DNA of 37,473 nt from Bdellovibrio sp. GTDB taxonomy: Bacteria > Bdellovibrionota > Bdellovibrionia > Bdellovibrionales > Bdellovibrionaceae. Each line of letters starts with the position of its first letter. The stretch's first letter is position 1. Below the pieces are notes generated by a model, which was given only the letters and a program-made list of their open reading frames with translations, did no database searches and was not told the origin of the DNA. The position numbers and the translations under genes were made by a program. This document shows positions 8,483 through 37,473 of the stretch, in pieces. The stretch spans positions 1-37,473 of the forward strand of contig DYOP01000018.1 in assembly GCA_020720425.1 (NCBI GenBank), in the 5' to 3' direction.

Positions 8483-9703
8483 TCAATCAGCAGATCTCTG
8501 CAACTTTGCGGCATAAAAGCCATCCCCACAGTTTTTATCTAAATAGCAATGCCATTCACGCGTGAGAGACCATTTTTTATCTTGATCTTGCGCTAAAAAG
8601 GCCTGTATTTGCTCTTCATTTTCAGACGGAAAAATACTGCAAGTCGAATAAACCATAACCCCGCCGGGCTTAACCATTAACGAATACTGAGTTAAAATGT
8701 TAAATTGATCCTTTTTTAACTGTTCCAATCTTTCTGGGGATAGCTTCCATTTGGTATCAGGATTACGCCGAATAACCCCTGACCCCGAACAGGGGACATC
8801 AAGAAGAAGCTTATCAAAACTCTGATGAAGCCTTTTAATGGTTTTTGAGTTTTCAATAACACGAGGCTCAATGATGCTAAGCTTGGCTCTTCTGGCACGT
8901 TTTTTTAACTCATCAAGCTTCCAAGAATGAATATCTAAAGCAAGCAAACGCCCCTGATTGTTCATAAGGGCCCCCATATGCAATGATTTTCCACCCGCTC
9001 CCGCACACGCATCTCCCACCCTCTCTCCTGGCTGTGGATTTAAAATGCGAGCAATTTGCTGACTCGATCTATCTTGGACTTCAAATAATCCCTTTTTAAA
9101 AGATTGGGTTATAAATACATTTTTTCGTTCGCGTAATTCAAACCCTTCTGAAACATATTTTATAGGTAACAGCTGGATACCTTCCTGATTTAAAAGTGTT
9201 ACTATATCCTTAGACTCAGGTAAAAGGGTGTTAATTCGAATGTCCACGGGGGCTTGCTCATTTAGCTTAACGGATAAAGTTTTCCAGGCCTCTTGGCCCA
9301 ACTCTTTTTGGCCTTTTTCATAGAGCCAATCAGGCCATGACCCCTGCACGGCAGGCGAAGTTTTTTCTAATTTATTTTTTTGATTTTGATATCTAATACT
9401 ATCCATACCATAGGGCTTTAAATCAGGTATTAGCCCCCTTTCAAAAGCATAGATAAACCAGATTTTTTTAAAATCAATTTCAGTTAATTCTTGCTCATCA
9501 CCCATTGATGCTAAAAATTTAAGCCGACGAAAGTGTCTTACTAAATCATATACGCTTTCTGCAAAAAAACGACGATCTCGAGATCCCCACTTAGGATGAC
9601 CTTTTAAGTAACGCTCAATAACTTTATCTGCAAATTTTGATTGATTAAAAATTTCAATCAACGCTTGGGCTATATTATCTATAAGTATTTCATGTATTTT
9701 CAT
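8483..9703 (-). CDS. rsmB: 16S rRNA (cytosine-C5)-methyltransferase, RsmB type
   Basis: This is a SAM-dependent rRNA m5C methyltransferase of the RsmB/NOP2 family. Residues 1-140 form a helical NusB-like region, as in RsmB. The catalytic domain has the SAM-binding motif DACAGAGGKS (231-240), motif IV LDVPCSGSGVIRRNPDTKW with the catalytic-pair cysteine C305, and motif VI VYSTCSIFPSENEEQ with the nucleophile C355. The IRRNPDTKW segment favours RsmB (C967 of 16S rRNA) over RsmF. The length of 406 is slightly below the usual 430. The upstream gene stops one base before this ATG, so the two are translationally coupled. In many genomes rsmB sits beside fmt; that is not the case here. Confidence 0.9.
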   Translation of the reverse strand: MKIHEILIDNIAQALIEIFNQSKFADKVIERYLKGHPKWGSRDRRFFAESVYDLVRHFRRLKFLASMGDEQELTEIDFKKIWFIYAFERGLIPDLKPYGMDSIRYQNQKNKLEKTSPAVQGSWPDWLYEKGQKELGQEAWKTLSVKLNEQAPVDIRINTLLPESKDIVTLLNQEGIQLLPIKYVSEGFELRERKNVFITQSFKKGLFEVQDRSSQQIARILNPQPGERVGDACAGAGGKSLHMGALMNNQGRLLALDIHSWKLDELKKRARRAKLSIIEPRVIENSKTIKRLHQSFDKLLLDVPCSGSGVIRRNPDTKWKLSPERLEQLKKDQFNILTQYSLMVKPGGVMVYSTCSIFPSENEEQIQAFLAQDQDKKWSLTREWHCYLDKNCGDGFYAAKLQRSAD

Positions 9704-32562: not shown

Positions 32563-33720
32563 TTACTTAGAAAATGGTTCTGTTCCCTCTTCTAAGATAT
32601 CTAAATATCTTCGATAAAGATAAATCTTATCCCGCTTTTTTCCGGAAATCTCTTCGAGTACACCTATAGATTTTAGATGATTTAAAGCACTTCTTGCTGT
32701 CGGCGCTGTCATTTTTAATTCTTTTGCCAGCAATAAAACTGTCACCCGCGGTAACCGCTTCATATACTCATGGGCTTGTTCGCATGAAAATCTAGCACGC
32801 CCCAAATGAGATATCTTATTTAGATCCTGAGAAAAAAGATCGTTAATTTTTTGGGCTGTTTGAATGGCCTGTTGTGAGGTTTGATAAACCCCAACCAAAA
32901 AAAATTCTAGCCAAGTCTCCCAAGATCCAGATTCTCGTACCTCTTGCAGAAGCTTAAAATAGGAAGAACGATTTTTTTTGAAATAATGACTTAAATATAA
33001 AATGGGGGCATCAAGTATATCATTCGAACAAAGAAGCAAAGTTATTAATAGCCTTCCAAGCCTGCCGTTACCATCTAAAAATGGATGTATTGTTTCAAAC
33101 TGAACATGGGTAACTCCCGCAATAATTAACACAGGCAAATCTTTATTATAAAAAAAGGTTTCAAGGTTACCAAGACAGTCGTCCAAATGCTCAACGGGAG
33201 GGGGAACAAAATGAGCATTCCCTGGCCTTGTTCCACCAATCCAATTTTGTGATCTCCTAAATTCTCCGGGTAACTGAGCTGCCCCCCTGCCTCCAGAAAG
33301 CAATAGGGAATGAATTTCTTTAACAAGCCTAAGTGATAATGGAAAATCATTTTTTAAACGTTCTAATCCGTAGCTTATAGCCCTCACATAATTAGATACC
33401 TCTTCTACATCTTCAAGAGAAATATCGGTTTTTTGATTATGCTCAAACAACATCAGATCTGAAAATGAGCTTTGAGCCCCCTCAATTTGACTTGAAAGTA
33501 AGGCTTCTTTTCGTACATACATATAAATAAACAAGGCTGTATTCGGAATACTTTTATGAATACTATTTAGCTCAGCCAAGGCTAAGGTTGCTTTTTCTAG
33601 AAGGGGATAGAGTAACGTTAAATTGATAGGTGGCTTAGGAGGCAGCAGAGGCGGGACATAGGCTTTATATGACTCACCTGTAACTTTTTTTGTAATATAT
33701 TTTCCAATTCGTTGTTTCAT
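32563..33720 (-). CDS. Fic-domain protein, class II, with C-terminal winged helix
   Basis: Fic proteins usually AMPylate (or otherwise nucleotidylate) target hydroxyls. The 385-residue protein carries the active motif HPFLDGNGRLGR (212-223) with catalytic His212, a preceding flap FVPPPVEHLDD (171-181), and an N-terminal inhibitory helix, SSQIEG at 76-81, matching [S/T]xxxE[G/N] of class II Fic proteins. A C-terminal winged helix (RVTVLLLAKELKMTAPTARS) would allow DNA binding, perhaps autoregulation. The strong promoter at 33817 and the inverted repeat around it fit such control. No antitoxin gene adjoins, as expected for an internally inhibited enzyme. Confidence 0.92.
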   Translation of the reverse strand: MKQRIGKYITKKVTGESYKAYVPPLLPPKPPINLTLLYPLLEKATLALAELNSIHKSIPNTALFIYMYVRKEALLSSQIEGAQSSFSDLMLFEHNQKTDISLEDVEEVSNYVRAISYGLERLKNDFPLSLRLVKEIHSLLLSGGRGAAQLPGEFRRSQNWIGGTRPGNAHFVPPPVEHLDDCLGNLETFFYNKDLPVLIIAGVTHVQFETIHPFLDGNGRLGRLLITLLLCSNDILDAPILYLSHYFKKNRSSYFKLLQEVRESGSWETWLEFFLVGVYQTSQQAIQTAQKINDLFSQDLNKISHLGRARFSCEQAHEYMKRLPRVTVLLLAKELKMTAPTARSALNHLKSIGVLEEISGKKRDKIYLYRRYLDILEEGTEPFSK

Positions 33721-33809
33721 AAATTAAATTTGTAAGCTGTAAATTTTAATTTTATTTTTATATTTATATTTTTCAGACCTCTCTCATAACTTTTCTTTTG
33801 CCAGCTTTG

Positions 33810-33841
33810 CTAAGAAATTATATTGTATTATCTTTTCTTAG
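33810..33841. promoter_or_regulatory. Inverted repeat (possible operator) framing the fic promoter
   Basis: ctaagaaa (33810-33817) and its exact complement tttcttag (33834-33841) are separated by 16 bases, about 24 bp centre to centre. One arm includes the outer edge of the -10 and reaches the start site, and the other covers the start of the -35. Confidence 0.6.
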
Positions 33842-33845
33842 TCAA
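33817..33845 (-). promoter_or_regulatory. Near-consensus promoter of fic
   Basis: On the minus strand, TTGACT (33840-33845), a 17-base spacer and a perfect TATAAT (33817-33822). It matches the sigma-70 consensus at eleven of twelve positions and lies about 90 bases from the fic ATG. Confidence 0.85.
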
Positions 33846-33907
33846 TCAAAGCGATGGCAGATAAATAATTATTTTGTTTTTTGGAAGCTAGAGCGAATAA
33901 AAATCAT

Positions 33908-33936
33908 TTGGACTGTCAATTATTCAAAAGTACGAT
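33908..33936 (+). promoter_or_regulatory. Possible promoter of the YcaO cluster
   Basis: TTGGAC (33908-33913), 17 bases and TACGAT (33931-33936). The -35 is poor and the -10 moderate. It fits the position, 30 bases before the YcaO start codon. Confidence 0.4.
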
Positions 33937-33965
33937 GAGAAGTATTAAAAATTTGGAGAGTTTGA

Positions 33966-34910
33966 ATGCTAAAAAATTTTTCAATGCATTCTTTTATTAA
34001 AGCTCAACTCGAGTTGGGAGCGGAGCTAAAACGAGTCAATTTGCCGCTTTCTACATCAAAATGGTTACATATAATACATTTTTCAATGCCAAATTTAAAC
34101 CATGGATTTTATGGTTTGGGAGCTGATTCAGTCGAAGAGCTAGCCTATATAAAGGCGATCGTTGAGTATTTTGAAAGAATGGCTTTTTTTGAAATTGGTA
34201 TTAAGCTGAGCTTTGATTCAACGAGTGGGATTGCTGGCCATAGGATGACTTATTTTGCAAAAAGAAATGCAATTTCAGAGTTGTATGAAAGAGACTCTTT
34301 TTTGCTTCATTGGTATAGTCAAACTCCTTTTTTAAAAGTTAAGACTGATATTAAATTTTTAGAAATGACTTTTGCCGAGCTGGTGGCTCAAAAAGTTAAG
34401 CCTTTATTTTTTAAAACTTTTCTAGGGCATCAAGAAACTTATGTGTGTTTTCTAATAAATAAGGAAACAGGAGGGTTTGCTATTGGCTTATCTTCAGGAA
34501 AAACACATTCAGAAAATATGAAAAAATCATTTTCTGAAGCGTTAATAAATTATTTTTTAGGCAATCAAGGTAAAACAAAAGAAGAACTTTTAAATAATTT
34601 AGAAAGTGAAGGCCTGAGCTCACTAAAAAATCATCGCACTTACTGGCTCCATTACAAGCTAATACCTGAATGGATTTTGAAACAATCGCATGCTCATAGA
34701 CTAGAAATCAATAAGATAAAACCAATTATCAAAAATCATTTTAGTGCGTCTTATGGTCCAATAAAAGTCGAAGGTATTCAGCTTTCTGAAATTTTTACTT
34801 TGAGTTTAGGACATCCTAATAATAACGATTGGAAACTATTGACGCAAAGAATAAAATATTTTAAACAGCCATTCAATGAATTCGTAATGAATCCCCATCC
34901 GATTCCATGA
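33966..34910 (+). CDS. YcaO-domain protein (ATP-dependent cyclodehydratase-like)
   Basis: YcaO enzymes use ATP to activate peptide amide backbones, forming azolines, thioamides or amidines in ribosomal peptides. In the 314-residue sequence I see GLGADSVEELAYIKAIVEYF plus ER (ExxER at 67-71), STSGIAGH (85-92), then AKRNAISELYERDSFLLHWY (ExxER at 105-109), and GFAIGLSSGKTHSENMKKSF with SEALINYFLG later. Both ExxER motifs match the ATP/Mg site. The protein ends in PHPIP, the PxPxP tail common in YcaO cyclodehydratases. No fused E1-like or ocin-ThiF partner is present, and the length is shorter than the usual 380-450. The start has GGAG six bases before it. The next gene's start overlaps the stop. 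Confidence 0.85.
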   Translation: MLKNFSMHSFIKAQLELGAELKRVNLPLSTSKWLHIIHFSMPNLNHGFYGLGADSVEELAYIKAIVEYFERMAFFEIGIKLSFDSTSGIAGHRMTYFAKRNAISELYERDSFLLHWYSQTPFLKVKTDIKFLEMTFAELVAQKVKPLFFKTFLGHQETYVCFLINKETGGFAIGLSSGKTHSENMKKSFSEALINYFLGNQGKTKEELLNNLESEGLSSLKNHRTYWLHYKLIPEWILKQSHAHRLEINKIKPIIKNHFSASYGPIKVEGIQLSEIFTLSLGHPNNNDWKLLTQRIKYFKQPFNEFVMNPHPIP

Positions 34911-34918
34911 GGTTAGGT

Positions 34919-35197
34919 ATGAAAAACAAAATAATTATTTTTTTTATAACAAGTTTATCACTAATAGATCGATCTTTGAGTTCAGAATTTTTTTTAAATG
35001 ACTTAAAAAAGAATACTTCTGCCGAGTCACTCGATAGTATTGGTGATGGTGGTGCGACATGCTATTCTCCTGCGGCTAAAGATCTAGATGAAAAAATTTT
35101 AGATATTAAAAATGATTTAAGACACTCGAATGCTTTTGATAAAATTTATTTTAGTGAGAGGCTTGTTGATCTCCTTAATGAAATCCAAGGTGAATAA
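34919..35197 (+). CDS. Small exported protein next to YcaO (possible substrate peptide)
   Basis: A 92-residue product. The ATG at 34919 is chosen, because GAGG is six bases before it; an ATG overlapping the ycaO stop at 34907 is the longer alternative. Residues 1-22 look like a signal peptide (MKNKIIIFFITSLSLIDRS, then LSS). The mature part has one Cys in the Gly-rich segment SIGDGGATCYSPA (about 43-55), with Ser and Thr near it, and then a charged helix (KDLDEKILDIKNDLRHSN). It matches no precursor family I know. The overlap of its 3' end with the next gene (20 bp) makes cotranslation likely. It may be the target of YcaO or an accessory periplasmic protein. Confidence 0.6.
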   Translation: MKNKIIIFFITSLSLIDRSLSSEFFLNDLKKNTSAESLDSIGDGGATCYSPAAKDLDEKILDIKNDLRHSNAFDKIYFSERLVDLLNEIQGE

Positions 35198-36650
35198 AAT
35201 TTATTTTTTTATATTTTTTAGTTTTTTTTCAATATTTGAGGTTGAGGCGAAAATGAGTGAAAGGCAGTTAAGAGTTAAATTATCATACCGTCTTCCTGTC
35301 GACCCTCTAGAAATTCGATCGATGGCTGACTATGATTTAGCACTACTTTTAACAGATACCTGGTTTGACTATGATGAGTCTCGAAAAGCAAAAGAAAATT
35401 TAATTAGTAACTGGTCTTTTAATCCCGAAAATGGGAGTTATTTATTTAGAGTTAATATTAATAAAAAGTGGTCTAATGGAGATCTGTTAACTTCACAAGA
35501 TCTTGTGTGGAACTTACGCAGATCCATTAAGCTTAATACTCAATTCGGCAAGGCTATTTCATCTATAATTGACGTTGATAGTATAAAAACACCTGACAAA
35601 AATTCAATTATAATAAGAACTAAAGACAATAAACCATCTGAAACATTTTTTCAAAGAATGGGTGGACAGCCTTTAGCCATTGTTCATATCAGTGATGTTA
35701 ATCCCAATACCCTTAAATTAATTTCTAATAAAGTTACCATTGGCCCATATGTTCTGAGAGAAAATAACCCAATTGAGATTAGACTTGAAAAAAATAATTA
35801 TTTTAACTCTGAAAACAAACAAGCACCAAAAGAAATAAGTATTAAGCAGGCTGATCGACTTTTTAACATTGATGATTTTTTAAATAAAAAAACATGGGAA
35901 AATATTATTCAAGTTAATTCGTTTTTATTACCAGAGACCGAAAAGTTATTCAAAATTAAAAAATTGTCATTTTGGACTAGGGGCCATGATAGAGTTTCAC
36001 TTTTAAAACCAATGAGTAAAAACAACCTATCGCTAACAAAAGCTCTTCTGATAGAAATAAGTAACCAATTAGATGGTATAAAATTTGAAAATCTGCCACT
36101 CAATGTTAAAAGAGCAACAAGTTTACAGCCTATCGGTTACCCTCTTTTTGATACGATAAAGCCCAAAAAGAATAAATCAAAATACAATAAAAATATAAAA
36201 ATACTAACCCCAATTGCCCAATCAAATGAATATCAAAAAAAACTACTTCAACCCATTTTTGAAGCGCTCAATGTGAAAGTAACATGGGATTTTAAAACTA
36301 AATCCGAATTTGGCGAGTTTTTTTTAATGGCTGATCAACATGATCTAGCTCTTTTTGACTTTGGTGTGGCGGATCCCGAACTGTCAACCTGGATCGGAAT
36401 AGTAACAACTAATAAGTTTATACATCTAGATTCGGGAGATTATGAAAAATTTCAGGAGATTTCTAAACTGTCAGATACTCCTGAGTCTGTAGCAAAATAT
36501 AAAGACCTTTTAAGAAAATCTTATGATCTTGGCAATTACGTTCCTCTTTTTCATTTTTCAACTTTATCTATTGGTCATGAAAATATAGATTTTAAAGCAA
36601 TTAAGGAATTAGATGAAACGGTTAACTACTCTAAAATCAATATTAAGTAG
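35178..36650 (+). CDS. Extracellular solute-binding protein, oligopeptide family (SBP_bac_5 type)
   Basis: The 490-residue product starts with the signal peptide MKSKVNKIYFFIFFSFFSIF (cleavage near EVEA). The domain-opening segment is KLSYRLPVDPLEIRSMADYD, followed by NLISNWSFNPENGSYLF and the family-typical KKWSNGDLLTSQDLVWNLRR. The C-terminal half has KILTPIAQSNEYQKKLLQPI (domain II) and LALFDFGVADPELSTW, the latter similar to the peptide-binding hinge. Binding of a peptide or modified peptide is the family expectation. No ABC permease or ATPase gene is in view. The ATG lies inside the 3' end of the preceding gene; a start further upstream (35130) lacks an export signal. Confidence 0.8.
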   Translation: MKSKVNKIYFFIFFSFFSIFEVEAKMSERQLRVKLSYRLPVDPLEIRSMADYDLALLLTDTWFDYDESRKAKENLISNWSFNPENGSYLFRVNINKKWSNGDLLTSQDLVWNLRRSIKLNTQFGKAISSIIDVDSIKTPDKNSIIIRTKDNKPSETFFQRMGGQPLAIVHISDVNPNTLKLISNKVTIGPYVLRENNPIEIRLEKNNYFNSENKQAPKEISIKQADRLFNIDDFLNKKTWENIIQVNSFLLPETEKLFKIKKLSFWTRGHDRVSLLKPMSKNNLSLTKALLIEISNQLDGIKFENLPLNVKRATSLQPIGYPLFDTIKPKKNKSKYNKNIKILTPIAQSNEYQKKLLQPIFEALNVKVTWDFKTKSEFGEFFLMADQHDLALFDFGVADPELSTWIGIVTTNKFIHLDSGDYEKFQEISKLSDTPESVAKYKDLLRKSYDLGNYVPLFHFSTLSIGHENIDFKAIKELDETVNYSKINIK

Positions 36651-37473
36651 TCCTTTATTTCGCAAGAGTATTATAACAGGTTTTTCATTTTGGGTAACCT
36701 TAATAATCCCTTTATATTTTATTTTTTGGGTATTTATTAATTGGTATGAAGAATCAAAAAATGAAGAGTTAAAAGAAGCTAATGAGCAAATATTAGCAAA
36801 TGTTTTTTCAGCTCAAGCGCGATATGGAGATTTTGTTAATGCAAGAGGCTTTGTTTTAGAGAAAGCCAAACCAATGGGCCTTAAATCGATCACAATTTGT
36901 AATGGTGATATTGAGGTGCTACCAGAATTTGATAAATCAAAATGTTCTCCACGTTCAAAATATGTTGAAATAGACATTAATGATTTAAAATTACAACTCG
37001 TATTTCACTGGAGCAAGAGTAGTTTAAGTAAAAATATTGTTTATTTAATTGCATTTGGAATATCTATATTGATTTCAGCATTTTTTATTTTTTTATCCGT
37101 AGTAATTTCCTACATAAATACAGTTAAAAGTCTTAAAATATTTAGTAGTGAGCTTTCTGAATTGGCTGCATCAGATAGAATTCCTGAATTTCCCTCGCTA
37201 CCTGAAGTCGTATCAGTTGTTGAAGCCATTAAAAATTTAAAAGAAAAGATTTTATTGGTTAACGAAGAAAACTTCAAGATGAAAGCTAAAAGTGTTTTTT
37301 CTGATTTGGCTAAGCAGGTATCCCACGATATTCGTTCCCCTTTATCTGCTTTGGGTGTTATTTTAGATCAAATTAATAATATCAAAGAAGAACACAGAGT
37401 TATTGTTAGAAATGCAGTATATCGAATTAGCGATATAGCTAACACTCTTTTGCAACAAGCCAAGCAACAGGAT
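36613..37473 (+). CDS. Membrane sensor histidine kinase (C-terminus cut by window edge)
   Basis: The frame is open from the ATG at 36613 to the right edge (287 codons). AAGGA lies five bases before the ATG, and the gene starts 38 bases before the end of the binding-protein gene in another frame. Residues 20-43 are a first membrane segment (FSFWVTLIIPLYFIFWVF) and 141-167 a second (IVYLIAFGISILISAFFIFL). About 97 residues between them face the periplasm and include two cysteines (C96 and C111). The cytoplasmic part has the DHp domain H-box SDLAKQVSHDIRSPLSALGV with His238. The CatA domain is beyond the window. The gene order suggests sensing of the peptide bound by the neighbouring protein. 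Confidence 0.88.
   Translation, partial: MKRLTTLKSILSSPLFRKSIITGFSFWVTLIIPLYFIFWVFINWYEESKNEELKEANEQILANVFSAQARYGDFVNARGFVLEKAKPMGLKSITICNGDIEVLPEFDKSKCSPRSKYVEIDINDLKLQLVFHWSKSSLSKNIVYLIAFGISILISAFFIFLSVVISYINTVKSLKIFSSELSELAASDRIPEFPSLPEVVSVVEAIKNLKEKILLVNEENFKMKAKSVFSDLAKQVSHDIRSPLSALGVILDQINNIKEEHRVIVRNAVYRISDIANTLLQQAKQQD

Follow-up and report, generated by a model that had tools for sequence, protein, structure and literature searches.

We analysed the complete contig DYOP01000018.1 (37,473 nucleotides, hereafter the window) of a 2.6 Mb draft genome of Bdellovibrio sp. (GCA_020720425.1), and conclude that four overlapping plus-strand genes at its right-hand end, here called the cassette, probably form, as a whole chain, a modified-peptide autoinducer circuit, that is, a pheromone system whose signal resembles a ribosomally synthesised and post-translationally modified peptide (RiPP). 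The genes code for a YcaO enzyme of 314 amino acids (aa) (33966-34910), a small exported protein of 92 aa that is the putative modified-peptide precursor (34919-35197), a solute-binding protein (SBP) of family 5, OppA/NikA/PrgZ-like and a putative peptide receptor (35178-36650), and the N-terminal part of a sensor histidine kinase (36613-37473), whose gene is cut at 287 aa because the window is the complete contig. The original prediction had placed these four genes at positions that match the sequence to the base, and the junctions it described are as stated: the TGA of the YcaO gene overlaps an ATG at 34907 in the next frame, the small gene and the SBP gene (ATG 35178) overlap by 20 bp, and the SBP and kinase genes (ATG 36613) by 38 bp. 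The small open reading frame can also begin at 34907; the preferred start is ATG 34919, which has GAGG just 5' of it. The A+T-richness reported earlier is also present, with 12 G/C in 34921-34980, and the cassette genes have a G+C (GC) content of 29-32% versus 38% at positions 1-32500.

The YcaO relatives returned by a same-family search are distant, with 25-43% identity in the matched part, and nearly all have genes for a small exported protein, SBP and kinase next to them. YcaO matches were found in 55 of 144 genomes and 31 of 69 genera by a class-wide profile search, and in 192 of 369 genomes phylum-wide when weak matches, possibly from other YcaO groups, are included. We retrieved 117 loci with a YcaO match, 98 of them well flanked (at least 2.5 kb on both sides). 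An SBP_bac_5 gene is adjacent on the same strand in 90 of the 98, and SBP and histidine kinase are both co-directional in 86, which rules out a chance junction of four genes and is the opposite of the outcome that would have refuted the original prediction, namely YcaO homologues that never co-occur with the other three. The small protein shares in this co-occurrence, with a clear exported candidate in 88 of 104 SBP-bearing loci, and peptide modification coupled to capture and signalling, as first suggested, is the best-fitting reading. The eight well-flanked loci without an SBP sit among other genes, including a nitroreductase (L216) and glycosyltransferases (L225, L228). As for the further partners that had been expected, an NtrC-type response regulator (RR) is additionally present in about half of the cassettes (58/117 loci), but neither a transporter permease nor an E1-like protein recurs: no recurrent permease was seen among 69 same-strand neighbours scanned at other cassettes, and no E1-like partner in the window cassette or recurrently among the same-strand flanking genes scanned. 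There are two main recurring gene orders, [RR]-small-SBP-YcaO-kinase and YcaO-small-SBP-kinase-[RR].

The trees of the three large proteins mirror one another across 92 cassettes (r of 0.82 for YcaO-SBP, 0.64 for YcaO-kinase and 0.66 for SBP-kinase, with a permutation maximum below 0.15), while the genes just outside the cassette lie on the same strand in 76 cases and on the opposite strand in 72, with no recurrent family. Co-occurrence, mirrored trees and random outside neighbours therefore mark the cassette as a unit and, on this comparative evidence, YcaO, small exported protein, OppA-like SBP and histidine kinase are inherited together. The cassette is spread over several families of Bdellovibrionota, and every cassette seen belongs to this phylum; YcaO relatives on GTDB contigs from outside the phylum, found in a collection scan with a seven-sequence alignment, had nothing nearby that matched the profiles of SBP, kinase or regulator. 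One genome may carry as many as five cassettes, whose small-protein cores differ.

The small protein of the window has a signal-peptide-like N-terminal stretch (this and the two transmembrane (TM) segments of the kinase were read from the sequence) and a single Cys in IGDGGATCYS, and it matched no Pfam family. Candidates at the other loci were chosen as proteins of 48-175 aa that are hydrophobic over a stretch at the N-terminus and encoded close to where the SBP gene starts, without regard to Cys, and they usually sit just 5' of the SBP gene. A Cys falls within the last 20 residues in 49 of 77, whereas 2000 shuffles of the mature part gave an expectation of 23 and at most 36. Around the last Cys there is an excess of Ser/Thr at -2 (42% versus 13% in the background), of Ile/Val at -1 and of Gly at -3. 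Related sequences not being independent, these figures are descriptive and no proof. Most small proteins have a near-C-terminal Cys core (GG[ST]C, [ST]IC or PSCW), others have Ser instead (PSSIG; L035, L112, L114 and L121) or [ST]QD (L157, L159, L161, L168, L170 and L171). The Ser and [ST]QD cores go with certain YcaO clades, and the enzymes of these clades differ at the C-terminus as well; the [ST]QD clade has a C-terminal motif of its own, mostly GGxLERLCL. Some precursors have just 48-60 aa, little beyond signal peptide and core. We thus find what characterises a RiPP precursor, a short peptide with a conserved modifiable core beside a modifying enzyme, the modification itself being a prediction from sequence. 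At L040, two tandem small exported proteins (8914-9249 and 9345-9692, minus strand) with related leaders and different cores precede one SBP and may be a duplicated precursor, and the small proteins of L124 and L142 (136-160 aa) contain an internal repeat, as if one unit had been duplicated.

The SBP of the window belongs to family 5 both by its SBP_bac_5 match (PF00496, 62.4 bits) and by its two-lobed fold matches, and it carries an N-terminal signal or anchor helix. Its AlphaFold2 model (residues 2-490, predicted local distance difference test (pLDDT) 89.9) was matched by Foldseek to CntA, NikA, OppA and AapF, and the profile of the cassette SBP family also matches PrgZ (4faj); apart from one weak partial match, the window SBP is the only, and full-length, match to this profile in its genome. 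The permease and ATPase that stand beside the SBP of an Opp/Dpp importer are not the pattern here, no permease being recurrent, and without one the SBP is more likely to present its ligand to the kinase than to supply an importer. A sensing role would also suit an external ligand (for example prey peptides, metallophores or cell-wall fragments), in which case SBP and kinase would sense nutrients or prey and the small protein would act in the periplasm as an accessory or a repressor, modified by YcaO for stability or tethered antagonism. Bdellovibrionota are predators, and family 5 binds diverse peptides as well as metallophores. However, paralogous cassettes of one genome differ in core while their SBPs co-diverge with YcaO, a pattern more typical of self-specific signal/receptor pairs, and the very short precursors consist of hardly more than a signal peptide and a core. 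We consider an external ligand unlikely.

The YcaO enzyme matches PF02624 at 26.6 bits (cut-off 25.7), and its match to the NCBIfam SagD model (E 2e-10) reaches 40.2 bits versus a cut-off of 219.25, so that it is a YcaO protein outside the SagD model. Among 71-83 relatives E67, E105, E108 and R109 never vary, and E70, R71, G88 and E191 hardly do; both ExxER motifs are kept in cassette YcaOs, the second aligning with McbD, TruD and the Methanocaldococcus jannaschii YcaO (MjYcaO), the first with TruD and MjYcaO. The strong Foldseek matches of its AlphaFold2 model (pLDDT 90.7) are YcaO structures, namely E. coli YcaO with AMP (4q86), McbD, LynD and MjYcaO. The family profile searched against PDB gave McbD as the best match (4.7e-12), whereas phmmer with the single window sequence found nothing there. 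It is presumably an ATP-dependent peptide-backbone modifying enzyme of the cyclodehydratase type, as judged from these likenesses. Since its C-terminus (PHPIP) fits PxPxP, the motif named for azoline-forming YcaOs (PMC12338566) and missing in some other cassette clades, an azoline at the core Cys is our first guess; thioamide or amidine formation or cleavage may be the chemistry instead. Stand-alone YcaOs exist, for example in bottromycin biosynthesis (PMC4603692).

A classical cluster for thiazole/oxazole-modified microcins (TOMMs) was rejected, as neither an E1-like (C protein) nor an F protein partner is found in the cassette or recurs beside it. A bacteriocin-like or cytotoxic RiPP, with SBP, kinase and regulator as the autoinduction and immunity parts of its biosynthetic cluster, would be in keeping with McbD, the microcin B17 enzyme, as the closest solved YcaO by profile, with the GG[ST]C cores, and with autoinduced RiPP clusters being common, but most cores have one Cys and not many residues that could be heterocyclised, and no exporter, protease, dehydrogenase or immunity gene recurs, which makes it improbable. 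We think it slightly less probable still that YcaO acts on another target (a ribosomal protein, the kinase or the binding protein) or as an ATP-dependent peptidase like MusD (7u58), a fold match of our model, for broad as YcaO chemistry is, this YcaO is co-inherited with the small gene, SBP and kinase, and its genome yielded no second YcaO domain. Two loci carry nitroreductase-family genes: at L216 (5875-8012, plus strand) one follows a YcaO gene in what is likely a conventional TOMM cluster of the same phylum, and at L032 (2566-3330, minus strand) one comes straight after the kinase of a YcaO-first cassette and could code for an azoline dehydrogenase.

The kinase of the window has two TM segments, an extracytoplasmic loop of about 100 residues and a HisKA region with SHDIRSPLS; in the 287 aa up to the contig end HisKA scores below threshold (19 bits) and no HATPase is visible, while HisKA, HATPase and response regulator domains are present in the kinases and regulators of its relatives. 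The missing half was sought in the same genome, where none of 24 kinase matches was recognised as a cut C-terminal half at a contig end. The adjacent regulators of other cassettes have receiver, sigma-54 activator and Fis-type helix-turn-helix domains (the last weak in some). Promoter-like sigma-54 sites (-24/-12) directly precede 24 of the 30 regulator-first cassettes and 9 of the 14 YcaO-first ones, compared to 13 of 318 control genes (Fisher p of 2e-22 and 7e-9, exact values that are optimistic because the pattern was widened after the first matches had been seen); their position next to the first gene is unaffected by the widening. SBP-first cassettes without a regulator have fewer such sites (5/24 versus 1/302). 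Additionally, 28 of the 116 other loci have VirB2/B3/B4-like genes of a type IV secretion system (T4SS) at a distance of up to about 6 kb, and 27 of these have a regulator. The proteins scanned from five of these T4SS-linked loci include VirB9/VirB10-like (CagX, TrbI) and TraG/VirD4-like or FtsK-like ones and recombinases of the serine or tyrosine type, such as integrative conjugative elements have, with no relaxase identified among them. Strong sigma-54-like sites also precede genes beside the cassette at L150 (4804, minus), L151 (8463, plus), L132 (4602, minus) and L034 (9310, plus), and the MotA/TolQ/ExbB protein and exported proteins encoded behind them are candidate outputs.

Comparison among cassettes thus shows inheritance as a unit, conservation of the catalytic motifs and of the core, the sigma-54 sites at regulator-bearing cassettes and the T4SS linkage. 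We infer core modification, Sec export, capture by the SBP, contact between SBP and kinase, and autoinduction to run as follows. In the cytoplasm, YcaO would use ATP to modify the small protein at its Cys/Ser/Thr core, the simplest product being an azoline at Cys, after which the small protein would exit via Sec and its core, intact or trimmed, would be captured by the periplasmic binding protein. The loaded SBP would then set the activity of the two-TM kinase, which would drive the sigma-54 activator or, in the clade of the window, some other partner; the activator would switch on the cassette itself, in a positive feedback, together with linked functions. About a quarter of the cassettes adjoin a conjugative-type T4SS. 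For quorum sensing, in which a self-made diffusible ligand would induce the system, the autoregulatory sigma-54 sites give indirect support.

Several observations speak against this circuit. The Cys of the window's small protein is internal, with 44 residues following it, the small proteins as a group are divergent outside the short core and form no detectable family, and in 16 of the 104 SBP-bearing loci no clear candidate was found. There is no gene for a partner with a leader-recognition domain, one clade of truncated YcaOs has no C-terminal PxP-like motif, and SBPs of family 5 also bind metals and metallophores. A sigma-54 site was not found upstream of the window cassette, none is apparent by eye in front of the cassettes of its nearest relatives, and a sigma-54 promoter shared with the T4SS operons had to be rejected, as nearly all loci have no site at the operon start.

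The nearest relatives of the window in all three trees are L232 and L221, which have its order YcaO-small-SBP-kinase, kinases of 696 and 705 aa, respectively, and a YcaO ending that also reads PHPIP. Neither has an adjacent NtrC regulator, and the L232 kinase shows a weak C-terminal receiver match. The small proteins of the window and L232 are little alike, with IGDGGATCY / IGNGGATCF as the only strongly conserved segment; L221 has EGSGGSSTCGVV. In both the window and L232 a tail of about 45 residues (about 44 in the window) follows the Cys, whereas in most other cassettes the Cys is near the C-terminus.

Parts of the cassette resemble systems known from other bacteria. In Vibrio, LuxP-LuxQ likewise joins a periplasmic binding protein to a membrane histidine kinase as a signal receptor, but LuxP is a sugar-type SBP for autoinducer-2, with no peptide and no YcaO. 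In Bacillus, ComQXPA encodes a modifying enzyme, a small pre-peptide, a histidine kinase and a response regulator together (PMC4008528); it is Gram-positive and has no SBP, ComQ is an isoprenyl transferase, enzyme and peptide are not homologous to those of the cassette, and ComP, unlike our kinase, has multiple TM segments and senses directly. PrgZ of Enterococcus pCF10 is an OppA-family pheromone receptor tied to conjugation, with a Sec-exported precursor (PMC7117660), but there Opp takes up the peptide and PrgX reads it in the cytoplasm, with neither kinase nor YcaO. TOMM or linear azol(in)e-containing peptide (LAP) systems (SagD, McbD) share the YcaO with ExxER and a PxPxP end and the Gly, Ser, Thr, Cys precursor core; the cassette differs in having no recurrent E1-like protein, ocin-ThiF, dehydrogenase or ABC exporter, a Sec-type signal peptide on its precursor, and an additional SBP, kinase and sigma-54 regulator. 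AapF of Pseudomonas sp. PDC86 (7kz9) has the family 5 fold of our SBP and binds a signalling molecule, HEHEAA, which is a different ligand, and no YcaO is known to be involved. By analogy, the logic of the cassette resembles ComQXPA combined with a two-part receptor of the LuxP kind and, in some cases, a PrgZ-like link to conjugation, and it is a member of none of them.

The original prediction knew of no described system of this composition, and we likewise found none in the open-access literature, nor any paper describing a YcaO system in Bdellovibrio or Bdellovibrionota (subscription papers being outside reach). We regard the cassette as a new system made from known protein families. Chances are about even that it is the first YcaO-modified (RiPP) peptide pheromone system in Gram-negatives, specific to Bdellovibrionota, read by SBP/kinase and sigma-54 regulator, with genomes that carry several orthogonal 'pherotypes', and with repeated recruitment to the control of integrative conjugative element transfer. 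Pheromone peptides sensed through two-component systems are known mainly from Gram-positives, and communication among predatory bacteria is poorly understood. A cassette that is conserved, present in several copies and restricted to one phylum, and that includes a modifying enzyme, would open cell-cell signalling in Bdellovibrionota to direct tests. If true, it would also give YcaO a role outside antibiotics, the ribosome or methanogenesis chemistry, and provide a Gram-negative counterpart of pheromone-controlled conjugation.

Upstream of the window cassette lies an intergenic region of 25% GC (33721-33965, plus strand), the presumed promoter region, and divergent from it a gene for a Fic-domain protein (Fic_N and Fic, with a winged-helix-like end; 32563-33720, minus strand), past which ordinary chromosomal genes are found. 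Neither tblastn against a plasmid collection nor a search of a defence-system library gave a match. Directly 3' of two other cassettes, L129 (2345-3418, minus strand) and L156 (7157-8188, plus strand), a trypsin-like peptidase is encoded, which may be a processing enzyme or an output. Two public records titled as a Streptomyces griseus metagenome-assembled genome (L080 and L082) carry Bdellovibrionota-type cassettes, and these titles are probably mislabelled.

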